From: a virus
Virus record (IMG/VR): IMGVR_UViG_3300045747_000454
Location: 1-64,000 of that record
Length of the DNA stretch: 64,000 bases
Direction: 5' to 3' (one strand)
A program made the position numbers and the translations under genes. The notes beneath the pieces were generated by a model. That model was given only the letters and a program-made list of their open reading frames with translations. It ran no database searches and had not been told where the DNA came from. Shown piece by piece: positions 4,685-63,309 of this stretch. Within the stretch, counting starts at the first letter, position 1, and each line of letters begins with the position of its first letter.

Positions 4685-5817
4685 AGAAATTCCTACACCT
4701 TCAATGCACAGTCTGCAACCGAACAATTGATCAGCTGGTCGACAACACTCACGTTGCCTCAGATCGCTGCACCATCACGCTCCGCTGCGCCGGTCACCTC
4801 GTCCCGGTCGTCTATCGAAACAACGCTCTAATCGCGCCGCAACCAGTTGTCGGCGTTGCTGATTGGACGTCACGCCACAAGGTCGCCGAAACGGTCGCGA
4901 TCAAATCAGCTAGCCTCATCACCGCTACGTCTGGTCCAACCACCACGACAATCGACCAGCGGCTGGTCATTGCTGTGCGCACCACCGCCCCGCTCACCAC
5001 CGCCAGCACGGCAGTGCTGACGCTCAACAAGCAGGTTGAGACCACCGTTGCCACCACGCAATTCGTCTATCGACGAGACGCCGCCTTCTCGTCGATTGAG
5101 GGCGTGGAGTCGGGCATTGAGAAGAAGACGCTGAGCTACAACACCACGTCGCAGAACATTGATGTCTACTTCGGCGGTATCAAGCTGACTCGCAATGTTG
5201 ACTACTGGCTCGCCGGTGATTCAGCTACAGCCATTGCCAACGCAATCACCTTCACCTCGCTCATCTCTGAGCCTGGCATCACGCAGGTCGACGTTGTTGT
5301 TTCCCCAAAGGTTACGGTCACACCAACCACCATCACGCTGAAGCGCAACAAGTACGACGAATCTCGCGTTGGCAGCGGCGCTTGGGAGAACGTTGACTTC
5401 GTCGACCGCTTCGTCGGCGGGACTTGGCAGCGCTATTACCTCTTCACAGCGGACATCGACTCGTCGGCTGACACGCTGCTGACAATCAACTCGCTCTACA
5501 CGGCCGAGCCGACGGTGCAGATTAGCAGCTACACCTCGCTTGACGTACTGCTTCTGCTCGCGCACGCTCCGTACTCGTCCATCGACCGCTACACTACCGT
5601 GGCGGCACCGTTGGCGAACATCACGGGCAGCAGCTATCTCAAGTACTCGGTCATCAGCGGCGGCAAGGTGCTGCAGCTTGTTGACTCAGCGGTGGTCAAC
5701 ATCTACCCACCGCTTCGCCTCTCAAAGTTCACCGTTGACCCAACGCTCACTACATCAACAGGGGTCAGCGACCTTATCACCATCGACGGCTCAGTCATTC
5801 TAGGACCAGACGCATGA
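4681..5817 (+). CDS. Putative virion structural protein with N-terminal Cys cluster
   Basis: A 378-residue Thr/Ser/Val-rich protein. The N-terminus has a zinc-ribbon-like cluster C9-x2-C12-x17-C30-x5-C36-x2-H39. The rest is beta-rich with alternating hydrophobic residues, as in phage tail and baseplate proteins. I do not recognise a specific family. It overlaps its neighbours by 4 bases and forms a unit with the next two genes. A late motif upstream at 4525 and the composition suggest a structural role; that is inference. Confidence 0.6.
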   Translation: MKKFLHLQCTVCNRTIDQLVDNTHVASDRCTITLRCAGHLVPVVYRNNALIAPQPVVGVADWTSRHKVAETVAIKSASLITATSGPTTTTIDQRLVIAVRTTAPLTTASTAVLTLNKQVETTVATTQFVYRRDAAFSSIEGVESGIEKKTLSYNTTSQNIDVYFGGIKLTRNVDYWLAGDSATAIANAITFTSLISEPGITQVDVVVSPKVTVTPTTITLKRNKYDESRVGSGAWENVDFVDRFVGGTWQRYYLFTADIDSSADTLLTINSLYTAEPTVQISSYTSLDVLLLLAHAPYSSIDRYTTVAAPLANITGSSYLKYSVISGGKVLQLVDSAVVNIYPPLRLSKFTVDPTLTTSTGVSDLITIDGSVILGPDA

Positions 5818-10000: not shown

Positions 10001-10408
10001 ATGATTCGAAGCAAGCGCGCTCGCGATCGCCTACTCGCGCTGATCGACAAGGACTGCGGTTCGAAGTCGACGGTCTATGATCCTCGCTACCCGTCGGCGC
10101 TCAACACCGACCACATGTACTGCCGGTACATCCCGCCGTTGAAGATTCAGCACCTCAAGATGCCGGTGATGCAGGCGCACGAGCCGCGAATGCTGTCCGA
10201 CATGACGTCTGGTCTTCATCCGCGCATCGGCGAACCCTACCGTCGGCTCAAGATGCTGACGGCGGATGCCGTCGCCTGGGATCGCAACCCGTGCAGTGAG
10301 GTTGCGCTGCCTGGTCCTAGCCATCCTGCAATCGAGATGAAGATGCCGTCGATTGAGGATATGATGCTTTACAACAACCTTGACAACGACTACGACATCC
10401 CCGTATGA
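10001..10408 (+). CDS. Hypothetical protein between polymerase and clamp
   Basis: A 135-residue unrecognised protein rich in Pro, Met and Arg, with no clear fold signature. GGAG at 9990-9993 supports the start. It overlaps the clamp gene by 4 bases. The T4 position between genes 45 and 43 holds clamp loader and regA, but I see no resemblance to them. Confidence 0.7.
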   Translation: MIRSKRARDRLLALIDKDCGSKSTVYDPRYPSALNTDHMYCRYIPPLKIQHLKMPVMQAHEPRMLSDMTSGLHPRIGEPYRRLKMLTADAVAWDRNPCSEVALPGPSHPAIEMKMPSIEDMMLYNNLDNDYDIPV

Positions 10409-11130
10409 AGCTCTCTCGCCCTGACATCGACAACATCCGTGCCGCCCTCGTGGTGTGTCGCGCCGCTGGCATCGAATCCGTCGTCATCACCGACAACAAG
10501 GTTCGTGGCACGACGCCGACCACCAAGGTAAGCATCATCAGCGACGTGCCGCTGTCCTTCGACTCCAAGCTCGTCATCGGCATCGGGCGCGTCGACGACT
10601 TCGCAAGTCGTCTAGCACTGTTCCCGACTGACATCGCCATCGAGGGCAAGGAGAACGACACCGGCGCCGTGTCGCTGCTGACCATCACCGGTGGTCGCTC
10701 GCGCATTCAGTTCCGCTGCACCGCCGAACGCCTCATCAAGTATCCGAAGGCGAACAACGACGAGGCGGTCGCCTACGTCAAGGCGTCCAAGGGCGAGGTG
10801 CAGCAGCTCGTGCGCGCCATCAAGACCCTCGGGTCCGAGACGTTCGTGCTCGCCATCGGGCGTGACGGTATTGTTCGCCTCGAGTCGACCTCGCCGACGA
10901 ACGAAACCTTCGCGATGGAGCTCGCCGAACCTGTGGTCTTCGAGTCCGACCCGCAGGGAGTTGTACATACCTATGAGGGTGGTCGCGTGGCGTCAACTCT
11001 CGACCTCGCAGTTCGTGAGGTCGATGACGTCACACTGATCGTCGGCGAGATGGGTTCACTGACCTTCACCGCCGGTGGTCAGACAATGGTCGCGATCCCC
11101 GATGCAAACCAGGAGGATGACGATGAGTGA
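10405..11130 (+). CDS. 45: DNA sliding clamp (T4 gp45-like)
   Basis: A 241-residue acidic protein, close to the roughly 228 residues of T4 gp45. The two-domain pattern of alternating strands, the central basic stretch (RIQFRCTAERLIKYPKANND) and the highly acidic C-terminus (NQEDDDE) fit the PCNA-fold phage clamp. It tethers the polymerase to DNA and, in T4, activates gp55-dependent late promoters. The position close behind gene 43 agrees. Sequence identity to known clamps is low by eye, so context contributes much of the confidence. Confidence 0.82.
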   Translation: MKLSRPDIDNIRAALVVCRAAGIESVVITDNKVRGTTPTTKVSIISDVPLSFDSKLVIGIGRVDDFASRLALFPTDIAIEGKENDTGAVSLLTITGGRSRIQFRCTAERLIKYPKANNDEAVAYVKASKGEVQQLVRAIKTLGSETFVLAIGRDGIVRLESTSPTNETFAMELAEPVVFESDPQGVVHTYEGGRVASTLDLAVREVDDVTLIVGEMGSLTFTAGGQTMVAIPDANQEDDDE

Positions 11131-13440: not shown

Positions 13441-14235
13441 TTAGATGATGTCGGTGCATGATAGCACTGACCAGCCCTTTGATGCGCCACGCGACACAGG
13501 TGTTGTGTCGCGCGTTGTTGCCTTGTTTCGAAGCGCATAGTACGACAGCTCGTGCTCAATGCAGAAGTCATTGCACGCCGATGTCAGGTGCAACTTGCCA
13601 GACGGCGATTGCAGCGACCAAGTCTTAGACATACCATTCTTAGCCCCGCGACGTTGTCGTGCTGCTTCACGATGACTTTCTGGTATGCCGCGTGCCCAGC
13701 GCTCTTGTGCGCGTTGACGCATGTTCTCGCGATGCTCGACAGAAAATACTCGGTCTTTCTGACTTTCGCTGCGCAATGCACGAAGCTCTGGTGTGTACGA
13801 TGCGGCAATGGCATTAGACAGATTTTGTCTAGCTTCATCTGTGATTGGCGCACGGTTTCGCTGAGACACAGACATCTTCGCGCGAGTTTCGTCCGTATGC
13901 CCGCGTGGGATATTCTTCACGAAGATTTCGTATAGGTGCCCATTCGGTGTGTGGCGTGGCATTGTCTTAGTGCCACGACGCATCGAGTGGAATGCGAAGT
14001 GCATCTTTCTCTTCGCATCGCCGTCCAACATCTTCGTCAACAGCAAATGGGCAATGAAGTGTTCGCGCGGCGTAAAGAGAACGAGGTTGACCTTCGTGTT
14101 TTTGCCACCAAGACACTTTGGGTGGATGTGGTGTGCTTCATAGTATTCGTCGCCCTTCGTACGAGGCAGCTCTTGCCTCGACCCCGTCAGCTCAAAATAC
14201 CAACGAGCGTATTTGTTGACCTTAGGTTCAAACAT
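13441..14235 (-). CDS. HNH homing endonuclease
   Basis: A 264-residue HNH protein. The core is EAHHIHPKCLGGKN, then VNLVLFTPREHFIAHLLL, at about residues 34-70. Repeated helical modules like NUMOD3 follow (HTDETRAKMSVSQRNR and SVEHRENMRQRAQERW). It is a paralogue of the gene at 3548-4216 and also runs opposite to its neighbours. GGAG (minus strand) lies 6 bases before the ATG, and a perfect TATAAATA late promoter lies 25 bases before it. It sits between genes of unknown function rather than inside one. Confidence 0.88.
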   Translation of the reverse strand: MFEPKVNKYARWYFELTGSRQELPRTKGDEYYEAHHIHPKCLGGKNTKVNLVLFTPREHFIAHLLLTKMLDGDAKRKMHFAFHSMRRGTKTMPRHTPNGHLYEIFVKNIPRGHTDETRAKMSVSQRNRAPITDEARQNLSNAIAASYTPELRALRSESQKDRVFSVEHRENMRQRAQERWARGIPESHREAARQRRGAKNGMSKTWSLQSPSGKLHLTSACNDFCIEHELSYYALRNKATTRDTTPVSRGASKGWSVLSCTDII

Positions 14236-14270: not shown

Positions 14271-14323
14271 TGCAGGGACTGCAGGCGGTTGTAAATACAA
14301 CCTGTATGTGGGATGTCCCTGCA
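14271..14323. repeat. Nested palindromes between divergent genes
   Basis: TGCAGGGAC (14271-14279) and GTCCCTGCA (14315-14323) form 9-base inverted arms. Inside them, GGTTGT (14287-14292) and ACAACC (14297-14302) form a 6-bp stem with an AAAT loop. The set lies between the HNH late promoter and the start of the gene at 14340. It could be an operator, a cruciform or a transcript hairpin. Confidence 0.6.
14290..14297 (+). promoter_or_regulatory. Late-promoter variant (TGTAAATA)
   Basis: TGTAAATA on the plus strand, 42 bases before ATG 14340 and inside the inner palindrome. The same variant precedes the PAAR gene on the other strand. It is weaker than the NATAAATA forms. Confidence 0.35.
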
Positions 14324-14339
14324 ACTGACTGGAGTTAAA

Positions 14340-14768
14340 ATGGCAAAGATCGAAAAGCGACCGACGGAAATGAGGCATGTTTTCCTGATCGATTGGGATG
14401 ACAATGGCATCTACAAGGAAATTGCCCTCGTCATGGAAGCCGGTGACGGTACGCTGTACGGCATCGAGGTCGAGAAGCTTCACCCGCTCGACAAGGGTCG
14501 TCTGAAGAAGTTCCTCGTGTCGGTCCACGCTGACAAGTACCCGCTGTGGGAGCTGCTCTCACAAGGTCGCCTGAACAACGGCGTCAACCCACTCGACTTC
14601 TTCCACACCAACTACGTCAAGGTCAAGCGTCCACGCGGCGCTGTGCTCGGTGGCGGCCTGGCCACGGTCGAGGTCTACACGGCTGAGCGTCAGATCGGCT
14701 CCGAGTTCGCCGACCCACGTGGTGGCGTCGTCTCGAACGAAGTTCCGTCCGCCTTCGCGGGGCGATAA
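14340..14768 (+). CDS. Hypothetical protein
   Basis: A 142-residue unrecognised soluble protein. I choose ATG 14340, preceded by GGAG at 14331-14334, over the in-frame ATG at 14313. The sequence has alternating strands (HVFLIDWDDNGIYKEIALVM) and a glycine-rich turn (GAVLGGGLATVEVY). A hairpin follows its stop codon. Confidence 0.7.
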   Translation: MAKIEKRPTEMRHVFLIDWDDNGIYKEIALVMEAGDGTLYGIEVEKLHPLDKGRLKKFLVSVHADKYPLWELLSQGRLNNGVNPLDFFHTNYVKVKRPRGAVLGGGLATVEVYTAERQIGSEFADPRGGVVSNEVPSAFAGR

Positions 14769-14775
14769 GCGTAAC

Positions 14776-14802
14776 CGCTCGTCCTAAAACCTAGGACGAG
14801 CG
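14776..14802 (+). terminator. Strong GC hairpin upstream of a promoter
   Basis: CGCTCGTCCTA (14776-14786) and TAGGACGAGCG (14792-14802) form an 11-bp perfect stem with a 5-base loop. No T run follows, so it is not a classical intrinsic terminator. TATAAT of the next promoter begins 16 bases downstream. Confidence 0.5.
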
Positions 14803-14817
14803 CCGCCTTAACCTTGG

Positions 14818-14823
14818 TATAAT
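14818..14823 (+). promoter_or_regulatory. Sigma70-like -10 element (GGTATAAT)
   Basis: TATAAT preceded by GG, 55 bases before the SLT start codon. The expected start site near 14830 excludes the left arm of the sequestering hairpin. Confidence 0.55.
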
Positions 14824-14837
14824 AGAGCTAGGTTGGA

Positions 14838-14845
14838 CCTAAATA
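14838..14845 (+). promoter_or_regulatory. Late-promoter variant (CCTAAATA)
   Basis: CCTAAATA on the plus strand, 33 bases before the SLT start codon. The identical octamer precedes the structural gene 35745-37391 on the minus strand, which supports it as a real variant. Confidence 0.45.
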
Positions 14846-14877
14846 CTGGTCCCACCAACTTTAACCAAGGTGTGACC

Positions 14878-15498
14878 ATGAAAAAAGTTCTATCAATGCT
14901 GGCATTGGTGACGATGCTGGCAATCATTGCGGCCTTCGCCCTCTTTTCCCACGTTCCAAAGTCTGCTCCGTCCTCCGTCATCGGCGAGAAGAGTGCGGGT
15001 GGTGTTGCTGTCGTGATGCCAGAGCGCGTGTCGATGTCGCAAGCGAAGATGCTGGCGACAGCCTATGACATCGCCAAGGCCGACGGCCACAAGGAGCCAG
15101 AGCTCGTGCAAGCCGTGCTGCTTCAAGAAACGCAGGCCGGCGCCAACCCGTCGTACAAGGTCGCCAATCCAGGCGCCGACGCCTACTTCGGGCCGATGCA
15201 GATCAAGCTCGCCGCAGCCCGCGACGTCCTGTCCAAGTGGCCGCAGCTCTTCGCTCAGTACGGCTTCCACACGCGCACCGACGACGAGGTCAAGGCCAAT
15301 CTGATTCTCAACGAGCACTTCAACATCGAGGTCGGGTCCAAGTACCTCCTCGTGCTGCAGCGCGACTACGGCTATCACGGTGAAGCGCTGCTCGTGGCCT
15401 ACAACAAGGGCCCGGGTGCTGCCGTCGGGATGACGAGCTCACCGTACTCGACCGGCGCGCTGGCCAAGCTGAACCAGCGCAAGGCTCGCAAGGCCTAA
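14878..15498 (+). CDS. Membrane-anchored SLT lytic transglycosylase-like protein
   Basis: A 206-residue protein. It starts at ATG 14878 (AAGG at 14867-14870), with a basic N-terminus and a hydrophobic segment MLALVTMLAIIAAFALF, a signal anchor or signal peptide. The SLT-type domain follows: ELVQAVLLQETQAG (catalytic Glu84), then YFGPMQIKLAAARD and GEALLVAYNKGPG, matching the E, GLMQ and AYN-G positions of soluble lytic transglycosylases. It would cleave the glycan strand of peptidoglycan from the periplasmic side, either for entry, for lysis or for assembly. It lies in the replication region, away from the lysin and spanins at 28758-31077. Its leader folds into a hairpin around the ribosome-binding site. 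Confidence 0.82.
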   Translation: MKKVLSMLALVTMLAIIAAFALFSHVPKSAPSSVIGEKSAGGVAVVMPERVSMSQAKMLATAYDIAKADGHKEPELVQAVLLQETQAGANPSYKVANPGADAYFGPMQIKLAAARDVLSKWPQLFAQYGFHTRTDDEVKANLILNEHFNIEVGSKYLLVLQRDYGYHGEALLVAYNKGPGAAVGMTSSPYSTGALAKLNQRKARKA

Positions 15499-15520: not shown

Positions 15521-15533
15521 CTGTTCGAGCCGG

Positions 15534-15539
15534 TATAAT
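15534..15539 (+). promoter_or_regulatory. Sigma70-like -10 element (GGTATAAT)
   Basis: TATAAT with only 6 bases between it and ATG 15546. Transcription from it would begin at or next to the start codon, giving a leaderless mRNA. Confidence 0.55.
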
Positions 15540-15545
15540 AGCCGT

Positions 15546-15546
15546 A
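15546..15546 (+). promoter_or_regulatory. Predicted leaderless transcription start
   Basis: The first base of ATG 15546 lies 7 bases after the -10 element, the usual distance for +1. No ribosome-binding site precedes the ATG, which agrees with leaderless initiation. Confidence 0.35.
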
Positions 15547-24171: not shown

Positions 24172-24633
24172 ATGGCAGATGTAAACGAATTTCAATTGGG
24201 GCTTGACACGAGCGCGCTTGCTAGCACGTCCGCACAGTCCGCACAGTCCGCACAGGTCTACTCAGGTGGCAACTCAGTCGTGGTCGGCGACCCAGTTGAC
24301 TATCCGCCGCCAGCCACTGAGGTGCCGAAGCGCACCATCAGCGTGTACGCCAACTCCATCAACGCCGTGTCGTACGACGTCAGCGGTGAGGTGGCGTGCT
24401 TTGACATCGTGTTCTCCGTCGGCATCATGGATTCAGACGGTTCGGCGTGCAAGACCTATCAAGTCGTCAAGCGCATCGGCATCGACAAGGAAAAGATTGC
24501 TGGTGAGGTCAAGGACTCCTCACCGGTCACGGTCGTCGAGGCATCAAAGCCTGAGCCGAAGAAGGTTATCAACGAGGGACGTTCGAAGCCATCAGAGCTC
24601 GAGCGCTTCCGCCGCATTGCAGGACTGGGGTAA
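24172..24633 (+). CDS. Hypothetical late protein with SAQ repeat
   Basis: A 153-residue unrecognised protein. The N-terminal 35 residues are low-complexity and include SAQSAQSAQ, encoded by a threefold 9-base repeat at 24229-24255. A beta-rich domain follows (RTISVYANSINAVSYDVS). The C-terminus (RSKPSELERFRRIAGLG) resembles tails of T4-like virion proteins. It has its own late promoter. Confidence 0.65.
   Translation: MADVNEFQLGLDTSALASTSAQSAQSAQVYSGGNSVVVGDPVDYPPPATEVPKRTISVYANSINAVSYDVSGEVACFDIVFSVGIMDSDGSACKTYQVVKRIGIDKEKIAGEVKDSSPVTVVEASKPEPKKVINEGRSKPSELERFRRIAGLG
24229..24255 (+). repeat. Tandem 9-base repeat, three copies
   Basis: TCCGCACAG occurs three times without interruption and encodes Ser-Ala-Gln three times. 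The perfect copies suggest recent expansion and possible length variation between related phages. Confidence 0.9.
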
Positions 24634-35748: not shown

Positions 35749-37391
35749 GGACGAACCTCAACTGACAATGAAGTGGTGTTGTCGCCAATTGTCAGGTCGA
35801 GATCAGGGCTTGAAACAGTGCCTTGAATAGTCAAATGTCCAGTCTTAGACTGTGCTGTGATCGTTACGTAGCTCGGACCAACCTCATTGCCAGACCCAAG
35901 TGTGCTCAGCACCGGCAGGTTCACAATGGTCCGACCGCCTGTTCGAACCACCGTCGAGCCAACGGCAAGACCAGAGACCTGAATCTGCTCATCGTGAATA
36001 TCTGGAATCACGAGGACACGAGTGATGGTGTTGGCTGTGAGCAGACCTTGATTGCGAATCTTGACGCCGATTTGGAACGAGCTGTTGCGCAGCGTAGAGA
36101 CTGGACCAGTGATGCTGATGCCAAGATTGGCTTCGGCTCCACCTGGCAGCCCTTGATTGACTGTGATGACTCCGACCTTGACTTCGTCGTCGAAACCAAA
36201 GTTGTTGATGGCGCGCAGGCGAACCGTGTAGATGCCTGGCGTTGCGAAGGTATAGGATGGGTGTGTTGCTGTAGAGTCGACCACACCGTCATTGGTGAAG
36301 TCCCACTCGTATTGTGTCACCGTGTTCAACGTCATGTTCGTAAAGTTCACGATGAGCGGTGCTGTACCGACCACCGTCGAGACGCTGAAGTCAGCGATTG
36401 GCACGCGCGAATCAACTGGCGGTGGCAACGGCACGAACTGGTCGAGAATGATTGGAGGTTGAACGTCGATGTAGATGGAGTCGGTGTCCCAGACATAGCC
36501 GGCAACCTGCAACACGCCTGTTGTTGGTGGCGTCGTTGTGACCTCGCCAAAGGGACCACTGAACACTGGGCGGTCAATCTGCGCTGCGGTGAACGCCCAC
36601 GATTCGTTTCGAACCAGACCGTCGGTCGTGATGTAGCCAACCTCGTTGTCATCAAGCGTTTCGGTGGCGATGCCAGCGATGCGAGACATGAAGTCGGTGC
36701 TGCGATTCAGCAGAACGCGCCGACCAGCGCCAACGCGAACCAGACTGAAGGCCGGAATCGGCTCATCAGCCATGCCAGACAGCAGGTCGGTTTCAAAGCG
36801 AACTCGACGGGCAGAGTTGTTGACAACGACAAGCCCAGCCGTCGTTGTCACAAAGGTGCCATCTGACTGCCGCAATGGCTTCAGATAGGCGTCGAGAACA
36901 ATGTTGCCGGCATCAAAGTCACCGCTGATGCCGGCTTGTGTGCCGATTGGGAACGTGCGAATGATTGAGCCAGCGGTGAGCCAGCCAGCGAAGACACGAA
37001 TCTTCTCAACCCACTTGCGTCCGTTCCACACGAACATCGTGGTTGACTGCGTGTCGAACCAGTGTTGGTCATCAAGTGGATTGACTGGCGGCGTGCCAGC
37101 AAAGATTGGTGGACGAAGCGTGAGACCACGCGTCAGCTCGCCAGTTAGAAGATTGACGTCCCAGTAGAGGTAAGAGGTAACGCTTGCCGGGATTGGACCC
37201 CACGCCCGAGTGACCGTCCGAATTTCTTCAACGATGTAGTTGGCATCGCGATGCGCGAACACGACGATAGTCGGGTCTGGTTGGACCAGCAAATCGACGA
37301 AGTCACCAACGCTTGACCTCTGAAGAAAAATTGGAGTCGAGAGCGCGTCTGACTGATACCGTGCTAGACCCTGGCGGAAGTTGATTTTCAT
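35745..37391 (-). CDS. Virion protein with PKD and CARDB-like domains
   Basis: A 548-residue structural protein. The first 330 residues are of a type seen in T4-like tail genes (YWDVNLLTGELTRG, DQHWFDTQSTTMFVWNG). A PKD domain follows at about 335-420, with the signature YEWDFTNDGVVDS and YTFATPGIYTVRL. The last 120 residues resemble a CARDB or DUF11 beta-sandwich (FQIGVKIRNQGLL). Such Ig-like domains bind surface polysaccharide or strengthen fibres. A CCTAAATA late-promoter variant precedes the start. Confidence 0.8.
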   Translation of the reverse strand: MKINFRQGLARYQSDALSTPIFLQRSSVGDFVDLLVQPDPTIVVFAHRDANYIVEEIRTVTRAWGPIPASVTSYLYWDVNLLTGELTRGLTLRPPIFAGTPPVNPLDDQHWFDTQSTTMFVWNGRKWVEKIRVFAGWLTAGSIIRTFPIGTQAGISGDFDAGNIVLDAYLKPLRQSDGTFVTTTAGLVVVNNSARRVRFETDLLSGMADEPIPAFSLVRVGAGRRVLLNRSTDFMSRIAGIATETLDDNEVGYITTDGLVRNESWAFTAAQIDRPVFSGPFGEVTTTPPTTGVLQVAGYVWDTDSIYIDVQPPIILDQFVPLPPPVDSRVPIADFSVSTVVGTAPLIVNFTNMTLNTVTQYEWDFTNDGVVDSTATHPSYTFATPGIYTVRLRAINNFGFDDEVKVGVITVNQGLPGGAEANLGISITGPVSTLRNSSFQIGVKIRNQGLLTANTITRVLVIPDIHDEQIQVSGLAVGSTVVRTGGRTIVNLPVLSTLGSGNEVGPSYVTITAQSKTGHLTIQGTVSSPDLDLTIGDNTTSLSVEVRP

Positions 37392-37417: not shown

Positions 37418-37425
37418 TATTTAGG
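37418..37425 (-). promoter_or_regulatory. Late-promoter variant (CCTAAATA)
   Basis: CCTAAATA on the minus strand, 27 bases before the start at 37391, the same variant as at 14838. Confidence 0.55.
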
Positions 37426-43172: not shown

Positions 43173-46100
43173 TTAGTCGTACGTTGATGCGGCTGAGGTG
43201 TCATTGACGACGCGGATTGAGTAGACGGACAGGCGCGACGTCTTGAAGACGTCCGTCAGCTCGAAGTTCGAAGCCAGCAGGTCATTCAGAGCGCCAAAGA
43301 AGACCTCATTGATTTGCATTGGCTTAGCGGCTGTCCAGATTGTCGTCATTGTCTTTCGCGTTGCGGCGGCTGTTTCGAACCACTTGTCCTGGTCGTTGAA
43401 GTCGAGAGCGGTGATGAAGTCGGCAGGATAGGCGCCACTTGCGGATGGCGGGACTGTCTTGTCGACGAGCTGTGTATTTACAATGGTTTTGGTGACGGTG
43501 GAAATCAACAAATCCTTCGGTGCCAGCGTCTGCTCGGGTCCGAACCCAAACTGCGTGCGAGTACCGTTGCGCTCGTCATAGCCGACGCGCCGCAGCGCTG
43601 GCACGGCGTTGCCGGCTGCGTCCTGTCCTGCCAGCGAGTCCGTCAGCTTCAGCCACAGCGCTTCTGGAATCGTCGTGCGCTGTCCAGGACGAATCAGCGT
43701 CCACTCGGTGTGCGTGTCCTTCAGGTCGAGCTGGTTCGGGTCGTCGCGCAGCGTGAAGTTGCGCGTGAAGCGCAGCTTGAACGTGTCGTCCTTGCCAACG
43801 ACGTAGGACAGACCAGAGATCGTGATGGCGTCGTAGCGATAGCTCTGCGAGCCACTTGGCGGCAGCAGATGCTGAAAGGTCAGATAGTTAGCCGGACCAT
43901 CGCGCAGCGCCTGAGCGATTGCGTTGGTCGACAGCTTCTTGTTGCGAGCGGCGATGGTCTTGTTGGTGACCCAGAAGTAGTAGATCGGCGAGGACGGTGC
44001 GCCATCGATGTCGCGCGTCGACAGCACGACGTACTCATAGTCCTTCTTGTACTGATGTTGAAAGGTCAGGTCATCGGCAACATCTGGGTTGAATGCCAGC
44101 TCGGCAGCGCTCGGTTCGTACTTGCGAATGATTGCCACGACGGTCGAGTACGGTTGAACGTTGGCGACGGTGATGGTTGCACCGGTAATGGTGTAGTTCG
44201 CCGTCAGCTGAATCAAACCATCGACGTAGACTGAGGTGCGTGAAGCGTCGATGTCAGTGGTGCTGACCAGCGGAGACGCACCAACGGTGGATAGGCGAAC
44301 TGTGTCAACGACACTCCAGTCGGTCCACGCCGTAGCGTAGCGCTCGATGACCGTGCCGTCGTTCAGCGTCCACGGTGTCTTGGCGTAGGCGACCGCCTCT
44401 TGAACCTGAGTCAGCGTGAAGGCTGGCGCAGAGATGAGCTCACCAAGGTATGGCTTCCAAGCTGAGTTCGGCTGCTTGCCATCGGCATCAAGCTCTGCCT
44501 GCGTTGGCACAGACCAAGCGCGCCACTCGGTGCGACCAGCATCGAGCGTGTCATTGGAGAAGCCGTCAGTTGGAATGGCTGGCCACGGTGTAATTTCAGA
44601 GAGCGTCGCAGCATCGCGAATCGTCACGTTGGCGCCAAGCGCTGCAGCAATCGAGTCGCGCAGCACGGTCACACTCGCCGTGCCGCCAGTCATCGTCGTC
44701 ACGGAGATGCGCAGACCGAAGGTCGGCAGATCGAACAGCTGAACCTCGCCAGTCACGAACTCGACGTTCGGCGCTGGTGGTTCAACGATGCTGGTCGTAG
44801 CGATGGACGATTGCGAGATGGCAAGCAGCTCAACGCGACCGCTGTCGACCTCAGTGACGCGCAGCGAGTGCGTGTAGTCGTAGATGATGACGCCGGTGTT
44901 CGTCTCAAGGCGAGCAGCGACATTGTCGTCCTGCAGCAGGTGCGAGAACAGCATTGGACCGACTACGTCCGTGTAGGTCAGCATCGAAACGGCGACCTTC
45001 AGCGTGATGCCAGCCAGCGTCAGCGTGACTGGCGCCAGAGTAGGCTGCGGCTGCGCCGTCTCGACGAAGCGCTTGGCACCAATGGCAACGACTTGACCCT
45101 CGCTCAGTGGGCGCAGGTCTGTTGCCACATTGTTCCAGGCGCCGATGCGAGAACCGAGCACGATGCCGTAGTCGCTGAACAGACCACGCTCAAGCGAGGC
45201 GGTGGTGCCATTGATGTAGAGGCGAGAGTCGAACGAGTGATTGAAGACTGGGTGAATCTCTGCAAGTGGGCGCGCTGCCTTCGACCAAGCGATTGGACGA
45301 ATGCTCCACTCGCGGTCACGAAGGTAGGTTTGCTGCAGCGCAACCTCACCGGCAGCCTTGGTGTTCGAATCAAGGCTGGCGTTACCAGCCTGCTCAGCGG
45401 CGAGCGCGTTGTACTCGCTTGGTGGCACTGGCGACTGCACCCACTCGTAGATGTCGATGGTCGAATAGTCGGTCAGCGCACCCCAGCGCGAGAGGCGAGC
45501 TGGACGATCTTGAAAGATGACATCGTCGTAGTACGGCAGATAGGCGAGATTTGTCGTATCGAACCAGACACGACCCAGCTCGTTGTCGCCCCATGGGCGC
45601 AGCGGGTCATACGAATTGTTGTTCGCTACCTTCGTGCTGACGTTGTACTTCGCTGGGTTGATCATTGAGGTGACGTTGACTGACTCGAGCGCCGTGGCGT
45701 TGTGCTGACCAGCGGCAGGATGCCAGAATGGAATCTCCTCGATCAGCTCGTTAGCCACGTAGTTGATCAGCTTGATTGGGCTGTACTTCGGCGTGGCGGC
45801 TCCATAGCCGGTGATGGTGATCGAGCCAGCCGTGCCAGCGATCACCGTCGTGGCGTTCAGCTGCGTTGCCAGCGAATCGCTGATGACCAGCTTGTCGGCA
45901 ATGAAGGGCACCGTGATGACCTCACCGACCGTCACGACCTTGGTGTACGAGCCAAGCACGGCAGCCTTGAAGAACGTGTCGAGGTTCAGGTCATCGATCG
46001 AGAACCAACGAGCCTCATCGTAGTTGTAGATTGGCGTGAAGCCCTCGTTCGACAGCGTGCGGCTATCGAATTGCAGCTGCGTGAACTGTTGCACGGTGTC

Positions 46101-49100
46101 GGTCGTCTTCAGCTTCAGCTCTGGGAAGGTGCGCTCACGAGCGTCACCGTACTCGGCAACCTTGTACGCCCAGTACTCGTCGATCTTCGCCTCTTGAAAG
46201 CGATCGTTGTTCAGAAAGGCGGTCACCGACATGTTGGTGCCCTTCATCTGAATCAGACCACGCCAGAAGTTGAACTGCGACTTCTCTTGAATGTCGAGGT
46301 TGTCGAAGTAGTCCTTCGTGTTGAAGCCAAGCAGCGCCAGCGCGTGGCGAGTTGTCTGCACGGTCTCGAAGGCCTTCGACGGATCGTAGTAGGCGGCGAT
46401 GTTGTCGGTCGAAGCCTGCAGATTCTGACGAACCTCATTGCCAACGAGGTAGTGACCACCATACTCTGGTCGCATCGTCTCAGATCCCTGACGACGACCG
46501 TTGAACTTGTAGGTCACGACGCGTGAGCCGGTGAATGGTTGATACAGCACACCGTTGCTGATGCTGCTCTCAACGTAGCGTCCAAAGATGAAGAGGTGTT
46601 CATACTCGTCGAGCTGAGCGTGCGCCGAGTACATTGCCACCGCGCTACCGAAGCGCGACAGCTTGTTGCCGCGAATGGCGTAGATTTCGTCCGAGCGCAT
46701 CTTGCGTCCGCCAAGGTCGAAGACCGCTGGGTGAATGTTGATGTCAAACAGACCAGCATCGGAGAACTCTGACAGCAGCCCAGAGTCCTGTTGAATCCAC
46801 AGCTGCTCTGTGAATGGCGAGACGACGATGCCCTGCTCGACCTCAACACCAAGATACAGCGTGTTCAGGAACTTCTCAATCTCGAGCTGCCACGTGCGAA
46901 GACGATTCGTTTCAGCGTCTGTGTTCGTCTCAAGGTCGAGCGCGAAGCGCCAACCGTCGACAAGCAGCTTCTGCGTGTAACCGAAGAGGAAGTTGACAAC
47001 GTTCTGCGCACCGGTGATTGTCAGCGGGAAGTCGGCAGTCAGCACGCCAGTGTTCTGCGTGTACTGCTTCCAAACGGTGTCCGTCGTTCGCTGGTCGAGA
47101 ACGTTGAACGTCTCGAACGTTCCAGCAGGGTCGACATTGTAGTAGTCGACGCTAGTGTGCAGCGGATTGTAGTTCTCGATACGGAATGTCCAATCGGCAG
47201 CGTCGGTAGCTGGATGAACCAGACCGTCGTCGGTGAGAACGTTGTCGCCGATGATCGTGATCGAGATGCGCAATCCGTAGATCCACAGGTCGCGCGTGAA
47301 GCTGTTCTTCTTGACGATGAGGTCGTAGCTCGACGTCGTCAGAGAGTCTGAGTCGGTGTAGACAACGAGGTCATCAGTCGAAACGAGACCACCAGCACGG
47401 TAGCCCATGTCAACATCCCAATTACGATAGGCGTCGATGGCGTAGGAGCCAGTTGTGTCGATGGCGACTTGTCGAAGAGCGTGCGTGAAGGTCTGACCGA
47501 AGCCATGAAAGATGTGGCGCAGCGCTGGCGCGAACGTGATGGTCGTCGGCGTGAAGGTGAACTTGTCGCCCTTGTGGAATGGTTGTCCAAAATCCTCGAT
47601 GCGCAGCCCAGTGAGCCCTGATAGATTGACCGTGGCACCCTCACGAGCGTAGCCGATGATGACGCCAGCTGAGTTGCGAACCGTAAAGTTCTGATAGCGC
47701 TGATTGCCGGCAACCTCATAGGCGTCATAGGTGATTGTGCCGCTGATGGTCGCGCTCGTGATTGAGCAAGAGCTCGCACGGTCGATTTGACGAATCTCGT
47801 CGCCATGCAGCAGAAAGCGCTTGTGGCCTGGAATGCTGACGTCGTAGCCATCGTAGAGCAGACCATCAACGGACACCCAGTTGTAGCCCCAGCAGTAGCT
47901 GAGGAACAGCAGCGGGTCGTACTTGAACAGAGCGCGCACGAGCGAGTAGCGATACTCGACGGTCGTCTTCCACGCCGTCTCGACTGGACTGTTCTGTCCG
48001 TAGGCGTAGCCGTTCAGCTTGTTCGGTGGACTCTGCGTTGTCAGCGCATTGACTGACTGTGGGTTGGTTGCGCTGACGTACGGCGCGAGCAGCACGTCGC
48101 GAACCGTATCAACGGAGAGGCGCAGCGTCGGACGACGACTTTGAATGTTGGCCCAGAGCGACGCGTTCCAGTAGCGAACCTGCTGAAAGACGACCGAGCT
48201 AACACCAAGGTTGGCAACGCTGTAGCGCAGCACCCACTTGGTGCCAACGTACGAGGTGCCCTCAAGAACGGCAACGTAGCTGTTCTGAATCAGCGAGACG
48301 GCAGCACGAGTCCAACCGCCAGCCGAGGCGGTCCAAATCCCGTTGTTGGCTGCTGTGGTTTCGCTGGTCAGCAGCACGCGGTCTCCAGCGCGCAGAATGA
48401 CTCCATCGATTGTTTGCAACCCTGACAGCACGGTAGAACCAGCCGTGGTCTTGACGGCGCGAACGTAGCCAGCATCGTAGAAGGTGCCGTTGTCAATCGT
48501 GTCTGGCGTGGCGTACGGCTTCGATGCCGCCACGAGCGCGGGCTCTGTCGCATCCCAATCGGCGAACGTAGCGTAGCCGAGCAGGCGCCACGGCTCGATG
48601 TTTGGACGATGCGTGACGAGAACGCCTGACACCGTGCGCTGATGCGCCTCGAGCACGTCGTACCAGCGGGCAGGTGTCGTTGCCACGTTGAGCGTCACGC
48701 CAGGGCTGAGCATGGCGTTCGAGTAGTTCCACGTCAGCGCGTTGGTTGAGACGTAGTCAGAACCCAGCGGGTCGAAGTTGTTGCGTGATGCGAAGAGGAA
48801 CAGCTCCTTCTTGAGCAGGTCTTGATAGTCTGGCGCTGCGAGAATCGCCTGCGCCGCCGATGATCCATCGAAGATGACGCGAGCATTTGGATTGCAGTGG
48901 TCGTACAGGCGCTGTTCAATTTTCAGCAGTACCTGATTGAGCGTGTCAGCGAGGCTGATGACGCGCCAGGCGCCAGCCGAAGCGTCGTAAGCCTCCATGA
49001 TGCTCGTGCCCTGCGTCATGTGAATCCACAGCATGCCATCAAACGGCGCTGGTGGTGGTGTTTGTGCCGTGCCACCAAGCGCTGTTCGGTTGGTACCATT

Positions 49101-52013
49101 CGGCAGCGTGACAACCTTGTCGTACTGAGTGTCGAGAATCTGCTGACGGAAGTCGTTCGAATCAACCCACAGCGACGAGCTGTGCCCATCGTGATGGAAC
49201 AACATCAGCGTGCCAACTATGGTGTTGTAGTCAATGGCTGGGAGAGCTCGTGGTAGCGCGCCAAGCTGCGGCAGCGTGGCTGGGAAGCCAGTGACACCAG
49301 AGGTTGAATCGTACAGCACCTGACGAACGTCATTGTCAGCCGCGCGAATCGACAGAATGTAATCGACGAGAGCGTCAATCTTCGCGTCCTGCGCCGCCGT
49401 ACTATCGTAGTCAACAACGCCGTGCGAGACGAAGTACTGAGCGATGTTCTGCTTGAAGATGTCCTCAACAGCGCCAAGCCCGTTGATGTACTGCTTCTGC
49501 GCTAGGTCGATGATGCTGATTGGAGTCGAATCCTTCTGCATCAGCAGCGCAGCGAGCAGCGAGTGTTGCTCGCTCCAGCTCTTGATGACGCCGCCGAAGG
49601 CTTCATCGAGCGTCGTGCCAGGTGGTTGATTCAGCAGAATGCTGCGAAAGTGTCCATAGAGCGAGCCCTCAAGAATGTCGTCGCTGGCATTGTTGTACGG
49701 GTTGTTGATGAACGACCGCGAGACCTGATAGGCGCCAATCTTGTTGACGTCAGCGGCTTCGCCGCCATAGAGGTCCGCCACGTTGTCAGCAGCATCACGA
49801 TAGACGTAGCGCGGCGACTCGGCGTTGCCGATGCGAATAGTGAAGGTGTCGCCAACGTCGTAGGCAAGCGTGCCATTGGAGATGGTGAAGCTGAGCTCAG
49901 CGCTAGAGTATGGAACGCCGACAGTAGCCGAATTGACTCCGCTTGGAAGAACAACCGTCTTTGAGCCACTGACGCTGAACGTCGTGGGACTAGCTGCTGT
50001 CAGCGTCCACACCTGCTGTTGAGTGGTCGCTGTTGGGATGACAGAAATGATTTGACCCTTGCTAGCGCCAGTGAAGACTGGGGTCGAGGCGACTGGACCA
50101 GCGGAGACCGTGAAGGTGAAGGTTTCACCAACGGCGAACGGAACTTGACCATCGCTGACGAGCAGCGTGAACTGCGTGTTCGAGAAGAGTCCGCCAACGG
50201 TGACAACGCCTGGCGCACCAGCCGGTCCTGAGTTCGAACCTGATGCCAGAAAGGTTGACGGCGATGTTGCAACCAGCGTCCACGTTTGCGGTGTTGCCGA
50301 GTCGAATGGCACCAGGCTGGCGATGACGCCCTTGCCCTTGCCGACGAATGACGTATCAATCAGCGTTGGAACAGAGTAGCCAGCATGCCAGATGCTGTGA
50401 AGCGAACCATTGACCTTGTAGAACAGCGAGTTGCCATTCTCATCTACCAGACCATGATTGAAGATGTAGTCGGCGCTATCGGTCGTGCTTGCCTTGACGC
50501 GCTTCTGCAGCACAGCATCAAGGTCTGCCATCGGATCATCAGCGTAGAAGAAGATGGAGCTGACGCGACCGGCGTGCGTGCCGTCGTACCGATACAGGTC
50601 GAACATCGGCAGCTGATTGAACTCAGTCTTCTGCTGCTCGAACACGTAGCCAGAGTCCGATGGAGCGCCATCAGCATCGACATAGCCATTCAGCTGAAGG
50701 TTGCTATCATACTCGATGATTGGGCGCGATGCCTGAATGATGCCAGCGGTGTCGACGCCAAGCGCTTCAAGCTCAGTGATGCTGTACCAACGATTGCCCT
50801 CACGCCAGTCATTGGTGTTGCTTGGGTCAAGTGAGGCAGACCACGAGTTGCCTGCCGTCGAGGCGAAGAGCTTGTCAGCATTGACCGTACCGCTGCTGCC
50901 GACCCAGACACGAGCGTCAGCTACGATGTAGGCGCCATCGTAGTCTGCAGCGCGCGTCCAAGCGCGAGGACCAACAATGTAGATGCCGTTCTCTGTAGCG
51001 ACGTTATCCTTGACCAGCACGCGCTGTCCGGCTTCGAGAGTGATGCCATCAATCGTCTGATAGGCGTTCAACGTCTCGATGCCGACAATGCGACCCTTGA
51101 GTCCTGACGTAATCGTCTGGGCGATGCTATAGGTGGTGGAGATGAACTGCGTCGAGATGGTGAAGGTGTCGGTGGCAGCGAACTTCTCATTGTCGGACCA
51201 GACGCCAAGCTCGTTGAGAATCGGACTGCGCTGAATTGTCAGCTTGAGCAGCTGAACTGGAGCGCCGGCGCCAAGCTGAACCTTGAAGTAGAACACGTCA
51301 TAGACGACAGATCCAGGCAGCGCAGCATTCACCGTTGGCATCGTCGAGAGCGTGCAGCGCAGCGTTGATGAGTTGATGAGCGTCTGCATTCCGCTGATGA
51401 CCGCCGTGTAGCTGCCAAGCGAGTCGAGAGCCTGCAGCGTGAAGTGCAGTGAATCCGTGAAGGTGATTTTGAAGCGTTGATCAACGAAGCCAGAGCCAGT
51501 GCGAACGACAGATGTTGTGGTGGCAACGACGGCGCTAAGCTTATTCAAGTCAGCGTTGGCTGGGCGAGCAATGGCATAGTACTCTGGGTTTGTCCCAAGC
51601 CAGAAGTAATTGAAGTAGTTGGCGAACTTGTCGATGTTGATTGGTGGCAGGTAGTTGTTTGCCTGCGAGTATAGCCAGCGCTGACCAGCCGTCTTGACGC
51701 CAAGTGTCTCAGCCTTGCGAATGATGTCCTGCACGGTGAAGGCGTGCGTCTCGACGCCCTGCTTGAAGTTCAGCACTGGGATGATGGCGTTGATGTCACG
51801 CTCGACCGTCGACTGTGGAACACGAACCGTCTGGTCATCGAACGACGTTGGCTTGTGGCCGACGTAGCCGTACAGTGGCACGCTCTCGTCGTGCGTCATC
51901 ATTCGATTGAACAGATTGTCGATCAGGCCCGTGATCACAGGGTTCCGAAGGTTGCTCGGGACGTACTGCGTCAGGTCGTTGAACGGAAGGGCAAAGTCGA
52001 TCTTTTGTGCCAT
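43173..52013 (-). CDS. Giant baseplate/tail structural protein (2946 residues)
   Basis: The largest gene in the window. The N-terminus (DLTQYVPSNLRNPVITGLID, NLFNRMMTHDESVPLYGYVG) is of a kind found downstream of gene 6 in T4-like marine phages, where T4 has wedge protein gp7 and its partners. It contains two IDG modules (near residues 325 and 1200: IDGITLEAGQRVLVKDN, IDGVILRAGDRVLLTSE) and two adjacent WT modules (about 560-720). No enzyme motif is seen. A wedge or inter-wedge scaffold linking baseplate to fibres is inferred from position and size. A late promoter is 26 bases before the start. Confidence 0.75.
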   Translation of the reverse strand: MAQKIDFALPFNDLTQYVPSNLRNPVITGLIDNLFNRMMTHDESVPLYGYVGHKPTSFDDQTVRVPQSTVERDINAIIPVLNFKQGVETHAFTVQDIIRKAETLGVKTAGQRWLYSQANNYLPPINIDKFANYFNYFWLGTNPEYYAIARPANADLNKLSAVVATTTSVVRTGSGFVDQRFKITFTDSLHFTLQALDSLGSYTAVISGMQTLINSSTLRCTLSTMPTVNAALPGSVVYDVFYFKVQLGAGAPVQLLKLTIQRSPILNELGVWSDNEKFAATDTFTISTQFISTTYSIAQTITSGLKGRIVGIETLNAYQTIDGITLEAGQRVLVKDNVATENGIYIVGPRAWTRAADYDGAYIVADARVWVGSSGTVNADKLFASTAGNSWSASLDPSNTNDWREGNRWYSITELEALGVDTAGIIQASRPIIEYDSNLQLNGYVDADGAPSDSGYVFEQQKTEFNQLPMFDLYRYDGTHAGRVSSIFFYADDPMADLDAVLQKRVKASTTDSADYIFNHGLVDENGNSLFYKVNGSLHSIWHAGYSVPTLIDTSFVGKGKGVIASLVPFDSATPQTWTLVATSPSTFLASGSNSGPAGAPGVVTVGGLFSNTQFTLLVSDGQVPFAVGETFTFTVSAGPVASTPVFTGASKGQIISVIPTATTQQQVWTLTAASPTTFSVSGSKTVVLPSGVNSATVGVPYSSAELSFTISNGTLAYDVGDTFTIRIGNAESPRYVYRDAADNVADLYGGEAADVNKIGAYQVSRSFINNPYNNASDDILEGSLYGHFRSILLNQPPGTTLDEAFGGVIKSWSEQHSLLAALLMQKDSTPISIIDLAQKQYINGLGAVEDIFKQNIAQYFVSHGVVDYDSTAAQDAKIDALVDYILSIRAADNDVRQVLYDSTSGVTGFPATLPQLGALPRALPAIDYNTIVGTLMLFHHDGHSSSLWVDSNDFRQQILDTQYDKVVTLPNGTNRTALGGTAQTPPPAPFDGMLWIHMTQGTSIMEAYDASAGAWRVISLADTLNQVLLKIEQRLYDHCNPNARVIFDGSSAAQAILAAPDYQDLLKKELFLFASRNNFDPLGSDYVSTNALTWNYSNAMLSPGVTLNVATTPARWYDVLEAHQRTVSGVLVTHRPNIEPWRLLGYATFADWDATEPALVAASKPYATPDTIDNGTFYDAGYVRAVKTTAGSTVLSGLQTIDGVILRAGDRVLLTSETTAANNGIWTASAGGWTRAAVSLIQNSYVAVLEGTSYVGTKWVLRYSVANLGVSSVVFQQVRYWNASLWANIQSRRPTLRLSVDTVRDVLLAPYVSATNPQSVNALTTQSPPNKLNGYAYGQNSPVETAWKTTVEYRYSLVRALFKYDPLLFLSYCWGYNWVSVDGLLYDGYDVSIPGHKRFLLHGDEIRQIDRASSCSITSATISGTITYDAYEVAGNQRYQNFTVRNSAGVIIGYAREGATVNLSGLTGLRIEDFGQPFHKGDKFTFTPTTITFAPALRHIFHGFGQTFTHALRQVAIDTTGSYAIDAYRNWDVDMGYRAGGLVSTDDLVVYTDSDSLTTSSYDLIVKKNSFTRDLWIYGLRISITIIGDNVLTDDGLVHPATDAADWTFRIENYNPLHTSVDYYNVDPAGTFETFNVLDQRTTDTVWKQYTQNTGVLTADFPLTITGAQNVVNFLFGYTQKLLVDGWRFALDLETNTDAETNRLRTWQLEIEKFLNTLYLGVEVEQGIVVSPFTEQLWIQQDSGLLSEFSDAGLFDINIHPAVFDLGGRKMRSDEIYAIRGNKLSRFGSAVAMYSAHAQLDEYEHLFIFGRYVESSISNGVLYQPFTGSRVVTYKFNGRRQGSETMRPEYGGHYLVGNEVRQNLQASTDNIAAYYDPSKAFETVQTTRHALALLGFNTKDYFDNLDIQEKSQFNFWRGLIQMKGTNMSVTAFLNNDRFQEAKIDEYWAYKVAEYGDARERTFPELKLKTTDTVQQFTQLQFDSRTLSNEGFTPIYNYDEARWFSIDDLNLDTFFKAAVLGSYTKVVTVGEVITVPFIADKLVISDSLATQLNATTVIAGTAGSITITGYGAATPKYSPIKLINYVANELIEEIPFWHPAAGQHNATALESVNVTSMINPAKYNVSTKVANNNSYDPLRPWGDNELGRVWFDTTNLAYLPYYDDVIFQDRPARLSRWGALTDYSTIDIYEWVQSPVPPSEYNALAAEQAGNASLDSNTKAAGEVALQQTYLRDREWSIRPIAWSKAARPLAEIHPVFNHSFDSRLYINGTTASLERGLFSDYGIVLGSRIGAWNNVATDLRPLSEGQVVAIGAKRFVETAQPQPTLAPVTLTLAGITLKVAVSMLTYTDVVGPMLFSHLLQDDNVAARLETNTGVIIYDYTHSLRVTEVDSGRVELLAISQSSIATTSIVEPPAPNVEFVTGEVQLFDLPTFGLRISVTTMTGGTASVTVLRDSIAAALGANVTIRDAATLSEITPWPAIPTDGFSNDTLDAGRTEWRAWSVPTQAELDADGKQPNSAWKPYLGELISAPAFTLTQVQEAVAYAKTPWTLNDGTVIERYATAWTDWSVVDTVRLSTVGASPLVSTTDIDASRTSVYVDGLIQLTANYTITGATITVANVQPYSTVVAIIRKYEPSAAELAFNPDVADDLTFQHQYKKDYEYVVLSTRDIDGAPSSPIYYFWVTNKTIAARNKKLSTNAIAQALRDGPANYLTFQHLLPPSGSQSYRYDAITISGLSYVVGKDDTFKLRFTRNFTLRDDPNQLDLKDTHTEWTLIRPGQRTTIPEALWLKLTDSLAGQDAAGNAVPALRRVGYDERNGTRTQFGFGPEQTLAPKDLLISTVTKTIVNTQLVDKTVPPSASGAYPADFITALDFNDQDKWFETAAATRKTMTTIWTAAKPMQINEVFFGALNDLLASNFELTDVFKTSRLSVYSIRVVNDTSAASTYD

Positions 52014-62303: not shown

Positions 62304-62849
62304 ATGACAGCACCCAAAAAGCACTGTTTCACGATCTATCACATCCCAGGTCTAAAGGTCGGATGTACTTCAAACTTCAAGAAGCGTCAGAAGGCGTATC
62401 CCGAAGGAACGATCTTCGAAGTGATTGAGGTTCTGGAAGGCATCTCAGAAGAAGCCGCAGGCAACCGCGAGTGGGAATGGGCGGATCACTATGGCTATCA
62501 GCGTGGCGGCTTCTACGCCAATCATTGGGGCAACCACATCACCGACGAAATGAAGTCGGTCCTCGGCAAGAAGGGCGGCAACGCCTTGGCAGCTCAAGGT
62601 CGCAAGTGGGGTCCGCAATCCGACGACCATCGCGAGAAGATCGGTGCTCCACAGCGTGGTGTGCCACGCAAGAAACACGATGCGGCATCCAAAGCCAATC
62701 TCGCCGCCAAGCTCAAGGGCGCAACAGTGTGGGTTGTGAAAGATCAATCCCCTGTGAAGGTACGAACTGAGGCTCTTCAAGACTACTTGTCTGCGGGCTA
62801 TCAGCGTGGTCGGAAACTCAAGTCGGGAGGTCATCATGACTGCGCCTAA
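62304..62849 (+). CDS. GIY-YIG-like homing endonuclease
   Basis: A 181-residue protein. FTIYHIPGLKVGCTSNFKKR gives TIY and KVGCTSN at the GIY and YIG positions, followed by RQKAYP. NREWEWADHYGYQRGG follows, typical of phage GIY-YIG proteins. The middle has a NUMOD3-like DDHREKIGAPQRGVPRKKHD region, and the end is like the C-terminal module of the HNH gene at 3548 (VWVVKDQSP against VWIVEDLLG). It starts with MTAPKK, the same six residues as gene 55 just downstream, and overlaps gene 55 by 14 bases. Confidence 0.78.
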   Translation: MTAPKKHCFTIYHIPGLKVGCTSNFKKRQKAYPEGTIFEVIEVLEGISEEAAGNREWEWADHYGYQRGGFYANHWGNHITDEMKSVLGKKGGNALAAQGRKWGPQSDDHREKIGAPQRGVPRKKHDAASKANLAAKLKGATVWVVKDQSPVKVRTEALQDYLSAGYQRGRKLKSGGHHDCA

Positions 62850-63309
62850 GAAGATGGTCAAAGTTCGTAAGGAACGTTCGACTTCTACAAGAAATCACTA
62901 CGTCACCAACCAGCAGCTGATCGAGGCAATCGCTGAGGACAAGGCAAACGGCATGAAGCTTTCCAACAAGCTCGCCGGTTACCTGCACATGATCGCCGAG
63001 CGGTACTCATACAGCCCGTCGTTCGCCGGCTACTCCTTTCGCGAGGACATGGTCTCGGTCGCTGTGATGAACCTCGTCGCCAACTGGCACAAGTTCGATC
63101 CGGCAAAGTCCGACAACCCCTTCGCGTTCTACACGACGGCAGCCTATCGTTCGTTTCTGCAGTACCTTGCTGACGAGAAGAAGCATCGCGAGATTCGCGA
63201 CAACCTGCTCGTGAATGCTGGTGCCTCGCCGTCGTTCGCCTATCAGGACAAGACGAAGCCTGGTGCAACCCACGACGAAATGGCGTTCCGTTCCTCCTCG
63301 GAGGACTGA
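62836..63309 (+). CDS. 55: Late-transcription sigma factor (T4 gp55-like)
   Basis: A 157-residue protein (T4 gp55 is about 185) starting at ATG 62836 behind GGGAGGT. HYVTNQQLIEAI, then GYLHMIAERYSYSPSFAGYS, REDMVSVAVMNLVANWHKFD and NPFAFYTTAAYRSFLQYLAD correspond to the region 2-like core of gp55. It directs host RNA polymerase to TATAAATA promoters together with gp33 and the sliding clamp. Many such promoters are present here. The C-terminus (DEMAFRSSSED) lacks an obvious hydrophobic clamp-binding tail. No gp33 was recognised. Confidence 0.93.
   Translation: MTAPKKMVKVRKERSTSTRNHYVTNQQLIEAIAEDKANGMKLSNKLAGYLHMIAERYSYSPSFAGYSFREDMVSVAVMNLVANWHKFDPAKSDNPFAFYTTAAYRSFLQYLADEKKHREIRDNLLVNAGASPSFAYQDKTKPGATHDEMAFRSSSED

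Follow-up and report, generated by a model that had tools for sequence, protein, structure and literature searches.

The window analyzed here is a stretch of 64,000 nucleotides from a 116,033-base viral contig, of an uncultured phage, whose genes were called with a codon-usage script. A 206-amino-acid protein with an N-terminal hydrophobic helix is encoded on the plus strand at 14878-15498 (the start was taken as 14878) and resembles an SLT-type lytic transglycosylase in its Pfam profile and predicted fold. The Pfam SLT match scored 20.7 bits, just below the cutoff of 21.3, and the SLT profile matched no PDB sequence. An AF2 model (pLDDT of 75.5) had MltE as its best PDB match (E value of 9.9e-4), and Glu84 was invariant in 14 aligned sequences. 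The "SLT lysozyme" of the earlier note on this DNA is fairly termed lysozyme-like, although a role as the lysis enzyme is not established.

The SLT gene is surrounded, on the plus strand, by homologues of DNA polymerase, clamp, exonuclease, primase, and helicase; the recognized structural genes fall between 32 and 62 kb, on the minus strand. Since the gene upstream of SLT (14313-14768) is co-directional, early or middle read-through into SLT is likely. An antisense homing endonuclease gene (13441-14235) lies just upstream of that gene, with TATAAATA approximately 30 nt ahead of its start. The features of the SLT leader and of late transcription are as follows.

10405-11130, plus strand: sliding clamp, gp45-type (phrog_223, E value of 3.4e-5)
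14776-14802, plus strand: 11-bp hairpin CGCTCGTCCTA/TAGGACGAGCG just upstream of the mask, without a U tract (from the fold)
14811-14818, plus strand: left arm of the outer stem, ACCUUGGU / ACCTTGGT (letters and MFE fold)
14815-14823, plus strand: host-type extended -10 TGGTATAAT, a perfect match overlapping the left arm, predicted start near 14830
14835-14852, plus strand: inner stem GGACC/GGTCC with loop TAAATACT (MFE fold)
14838-14845, plus strand: very likely late promoter CCTAAATA, predicted start near 14851 (motif and genome statistics)
14864-14871, plus strand: right arm of the outer stem, ACCAAGGU / ACCAAGGT (letters and MFE fold)
14867-14870, plus strand: Shine-Dalgarno (SD) AAGG of the SLT gene, inside the right arm
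14878-15498, plus strand: SLT-like lytic transglycosylase gene
37418-37424, minus strand: CTAAATA late promoter (the same 8-mer, CCTAAATA) ahead of the gene starting at 37391
62836-63309, plus strand: gp55-type late sigma factor (phrog_234, E value of 6.5e-33)

Fold of the SLT leader and the predicted promoters within it

The MFE fold pairs 14811-14818 with 14864-14871, 14823-14827 with 14859-14863, 14831-14833 with 14854-14856, and 14835-14839 with 14848-14852, leaving 14840-14847 as the terminal loop. The earlier note had paired the two outer arms across the AAGG, and letters, coordinates, and MFE fold all agree. It had also placed a TATAAT over the left arm, which is present as part of the perfect extended -10, and a late-type motif in the loop of an inner stem, where UAAAUACU indeed forms the loop. 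Folding energy gave z scores of −4.2 (14780-14910) and −5.0 (14760-14905), with 0 of 200 shuffles folding equally well. No Rfam family matched in the window. A transcription terminator was ruled out for the outer stem because no U tract follows the right arm. Where the separate 14776-14802 hairpin lies, terminator-like hairpins with U tracts are common in SLT relatives.

In read-through RNA, the SLT SD sits in the helix of the 8-bp arm and costs 7.9 kcal/mol to open. The cost fell to 4.2 and 4.3 kcal/mol for RNAs beginning at 14830 and 14851, respectively, and was still 6.9 kcal/mol for an RNA beginning at 14848. When all sequence upstream of the late start was shuffled, 3 of 1,000 shuffles reached 7.9 kcal/mol; the observed cost was reached in 32 of 1,000 shuffles of the 5' untranslated region (5'UTR), in 30 of 1,000 shuffles of the SD flanks, and in 74 of 1,000 when the extended -10 and everything downstream were kept fixed. 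The last figure is the highest because the extended -10 already contributes pairs. Among the 77 SD-bearing genes of the genome, SLT ranked fifth by SD-opening cost, and its own 60 upstream nucleotides masked the SD better than all 49 upstream sequences swapped in. The SLT hairpin taken alone is thus more than chance, yet not overwhelmingly so, since the promoter letters by themselves provide some of the left arm; it is moderate evidence.

The promoter class of the loop motif was assessed by its distribution. TAAATA occurs at 39 sites in the 116-kb contig, 26 of them 20 to 50 nt before a predicted start codon; among the other 14 arrangements of these letters, only the overlapping ATAAAT exceeds 2. 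The positional enrichment was found in relatives as well, and the letters preceding TAAATA in this phage vary (CA, GA, TG, TA, and CC). Given these statistics, CCTAAATA, which lies 38 nt ahead of the SLT ATG, is very likely a late promoter, and the motif belongs to a genuine promoter class of this phage. The contig encodes both a gp55-type sigma and a sliding clamp, as in T4-type late transcription.

Other promoter arrangements were seen nearby. At 14289-14304, a putative late promoter lies within a palindrome, GGTTGTAAATACAACC, upstream of a gene starting at 14340, and ACTGTAAATACAGT, which is similar to this palindrome, is found ahead of the SLT region in L004/L014. At 15532-15546, a TATAAT ends 6 nt ahead of the ATG of the next gene, which has no SD; this spacing and the missing SD suggest a leaderless transcript. 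L004 has a like layout, with TGTTACAAT near 5656 and an ATG at 5669.

Arms, fold, promoter class, and SD-opening cost were computed here, as was the covariation of GH108 leaders described below. From these we infer transcripts, start sites, repression in cells, and SLT timing. As the probable reading, we favor a read-through mask that is formed by the 14811-14871 hairpin and removed when transcription starts within it, a device also present on the GH108 endolysin of the clade. RNA entering from upstream genes would carry the left arm and fold, hiding the SLT SD. RNA begun at the host-type promoter (near 14830) or at the gp55-type late promoter (near 14851) would be without the left arm, and SLT would be translated; initiation would remove the arm because the arm is built from promoter DNA. 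With both promoters inside the mask, only read-through SLT RNA would be silenced. The delay of lysozyme claimed in the earlier note does not follow, since the perfect extended -10 would yield unmasked SLT RNA early, from host polymerase. Judged from its promoters, SLT could be expressed early, late, or both.

SLT leaders of relatives

SLT leaders of relatives were examined for the same arrangement. Of the 27 leaders folded, 24 have an SD, including that of the window, which leaves 23 SD-bearing relatives; one leader that begins at a contig end (L013) and three without an SD (L023, L024, and L009) were excluded, and L068, L069, L071, and L074 were inspected by eye only. No named phage relative of the SLT region was found by blastn or tblastn, and no SLT relative was confirmed among GTDB genomes.

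Only one of the 23 relatives, L014, gained more than 3 kcal/mol. Here 12 pairs cover the GGAG and an extended -10 lies between the arms, so that opening the SD costs 14.2 kcal/mol in read-through RNA versus 0.9 kcal/mol from the local start; 0 of 1,000 shuffles matched this under each of two nulls. The L014 mask differs in sequence from that of the window and has a sigma70-type promoter with no TAAATA between the arms. The recurrent feature among the relatives was a promoter dedicated to the gene, in many cases preceded by a terminator-like hairpin: in 11 of the 23, an extended -10 or a TATAAT-like element lies between −53 and −85, and most have a promoter and a 5'UTR hairpin without outer-arm pairing. 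The comparison of relatives for compensatory changes in the arms, proposed in the earlier note, therefore revealed no covariation among SLT orthologues, which fail this test as a group because the window and L014 are the sole leaders that stand out.

A small local stem with the AAGG of the SD in its loop was seen in the SLT leaders of L017, L019, L021, L025, L027, and L071 (for example, AACACU-AAGG-AGUGUU and UGCU-AAGG-AGCA). This stem appears to covary among SLT relatives and, unlike the mask, would be present in every transcript.

It is possible, if doubtful, that SLT is ordinarily and independently promoted and that its extended -10 (TTGGTATAAT) pairs with a CCAAGG-type SD by coincidence to give the outer arms; the inner 5'UTR hairpin, of which many relatives have one, would then alone matter, e.g., for mRNA stability. 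The promoter-kept shuffles and the predominance of relatives lacking outer-arm pairing are as this explanation would have it; however, L014 shows independent and much stronger masking at the same gene, and late genes are masked across the clade (see below).

The textbook example of lysis delayed by a ribosome binding site hidden in early RNA is T4 gene e, where masking cuts translation approximately 100-fold. That SLT is a lysis enzyme under strict control of this kind, served by the late promoter only with the TATAAT inactive or repressed, is unlikely. The late core is exactly in the loop, and no stand-alone GH108 endolysin was found in the 116 kb of this phage, although the contig may be incomplete. 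Against this, the perfect extended -10 is in a position that recurs among relatives, and contig 3300031417_000403 encodes both an SLT (L020) and a GH108 (L175) protein. SLT may not be the main endolysin or lysis enzyme, since relatives can carry SLT together with a stand-alone GH108 gene, and the mask there lies on GH108.

Predicted masking of late genes and GH108 endolysins in the clade

The read-through mask was next considered for late genes in general, by swapping the sequence just upstream of a gene's late start for that of another late gene and comparing SD masking. A first test of 19 genes on this contig alone, with 8 further late genes left out for want of a recognizable SD, was weak (Fisher P values of 0.04 by shuffling and 0.09 by swapping). 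With 50 late genes from five contigs, own sequence at −13 to −1 masked more than swapped sequence (reached in 3 of 20,000 permutations), as did the 60 nt upstream (104 of 20,000). Six further contigs with 119 late genes gave 1 of 20,000 permutations, a result driven by G008 (0 of 5,000) and G012 (41 of 5,000); G004, G005, G011, and G014 were not significant singly. Gains of at least 3 kcal/mol were found for 10 of 50 genes (4.8 expected by swapping) with 60 upstream nucleotides and for 6 of 119 (2.4 expected) with 13. Masking is thus a minority feature and not a general rule of late genes.

The device was clearest on the stand-alone GH108 endolysin. In G012, the masked gene encodes a GH108 endolysin (phrog_315, E value of 8.8e-44; PF05838). 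The leader folds into one long hairpin without interruption, whose left arm contains the late promoter and whose right arm contains the SD and AUG (z score of −6.75). Among 15 records, four (G004, G007, G009, and G012) have stand-alone phrog_315 frames of approximately 200 amino acids, nine have phrog_315 only within a frame of 517 to 558 amino acids, and two short records have none. Late promoter and mask were present in all four stand-alone leaders, with differing arm sequences.

A wider scan found 69 GH108 loci, which reduced to 56 distinct leaders (L233 was dropped for too little upstream sequence), and 53 of the 56 have a TAAATA late promoter. After removal of the three without TAAATA, one without an SD, and one with the SD upstream of the start, 51 leaders were usable. 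Their mean SD-opening cost was 1.72 kcal/mol from the late start, 7.52 kcal/mol with their own upstream sequence, and 4.12 kcal/mol with swapped sequence (0 of 20,000 permutations, own versus swapped), and 44 of the 51 gained at least 3 kcal/mol, compared to 17.4 expected. The effect held in low- and high-GC halves (0 of 10,000 each); per-leader shuffles were less striking than the pooled test, with P values of ≤0.05 in 25 of 51.

The GH108 arms covary, with pairing kept through compensatory change. In the leader type with the arm at −7 to +1, helices of at least 7 bp occurred in 14 of 51 leaders versus a mean of 1.43 and a maximum of 6 over 2,000 swaps, and among 19 leaders with at least 6 pairs, position −4 is C-G, G-C, G-U, U-A, or A-U. 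A second, AT-rich leader type has its arm farther upstream. Such joint changes, G-U pairs included, are as expected for RNA. They make a DNA-level role of the inverted repeats, as an operator at the promoters, very improbable: the left arm does overlap promoter letters, and some late promoters lie in palindromes (14292 and 83908/83931), but the partner of the GH108 arm is the SD flank, in sequence that varies between phages.

A GH108 endolysin mask is also found in a cultured phage. Pseudomonas phage Astolliot (OM982621, Otagovirus) has CCUCCGAC-UAAAUAUG-GUUGGAGG before a GH108-like gene, with CTAAATA at the loop like that of the window, and the letters in Pseudomonas phage Milchi are identical. 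Of the 15 CTAAATA sites present in 45 kb of Astolliot, 10 are 15 to 60 nt ahead of annotated starts. A mask cleared by initiation would, on the GH108 gene, stop early and upstream transcripts from making the lysis enzyme. The T4 gene e type of control proposed in the earlier note is thus well supported for the clade, where the evidence comprises late promoters, raised SD-opening cost, and covarying arms in GH108 leaders and the Astolliot example; for this SLT gene, whose orthologues' arms do not covary, it is probable.

Comparison with known masked genes

In T4 gene e, long transcripts sequester the SD, late promoters adjoin the ribosome binding site, and late RNA is without the 5' strand (PMC3014915). 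The SLT leader is alike in that its SD would lie in a read-through helix, with the late promoter so placed that late RNA would lack the 5' strand. It differs in its gene (an SLT transglycosylase, and GH108 in relatives, rather than T4 lysozyme), in an extra host-type promoter inside the mask, and in its late core, CCTAAATA; in one GH108 leader type, moreover, the left arm fills −5 to −1 between late box and start. The most compact mask would, on balance, be these five bases from late box to start site, which would make promoter and translational lock one element.

The same hairpin logic operates on T4 soc, 49, and I-TevI and on segB and Aeh1 mobE, late genes within long early or middle transcripts (PMC3014915; PMC2988022), and the logic is common with this phage on unrelated genes. 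The Aeh1 late promoters, CTAAATA, have a C at −12 and a TAAATA core (PMC1524935; PMC2988020), also in common with this phage, which differs in mixing CATAAATA, GATAAATA, GTAAATA, and CTAAATA. According to a 2010 review, the gene e structure is found in close T4 relatives and several T4-like phages are without it (PMC3014915). Among the open-licence PMC papers searched, no description of masking of GH108 or SLT enzymes was found. The logic is already known on T4 e, soc, 49, and I-TevI, and its use on GH108 and SLT enzymes appears to be new.

We consider it likely, with some reserve, that gp55-type phages have repeatedly used initiation-cleared masking as a timing device, which settled independently on nonhomologous genes: T4 lysozyme, GH108 endolysins, SLT, a resolvase-like nuclease, and homing endonucleases. 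Covariation in some 50 distant leaders of another endolysin family would show a widespread, selected lysis-timing lock that can be read from sequence. Astolliot or Milchi offers a cultured phage for a direct test of the endolysin mask, and the mask offers a way to predict genes that a phage must not express early.

The nuclease is encoded in this phage by a masked late gene at 66996-67544 (arms UAGCUCC/GGAGCUA). Since its product is a RusA-like resolvase by PHROGs and PDDEXK_15 by Pfam, the likeness to T4 49 is only suggestive.

Further leaders were observed in the contig and its relatives. A homing endonuclease gene has a very strong hairpin over its SD (L042:1825-1910, contig 85825-85910; z score of −7.3) that may enclose a promoter; which codon starts the gene is ambiguous, and the hairpin, at 85881, may fall partly within the gene if the true start is the ATG at 85845. 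At contig 83906-83932 (L041/L042), two divergent putative late promoters together make up an inverted repeat, by which the SD of gene 83940 is masked as well. On the minus strand, a single open reading frame of 2,946 amino acids (43173-52013) lies behind a putative late promoter. In the relatives examined, a late promoter precedes the gene of a small conserved protein of unknown function (24172-24633 here; L097-L106) at an almost constant distance, and SD-complementary letters follow TAAATA in several members.
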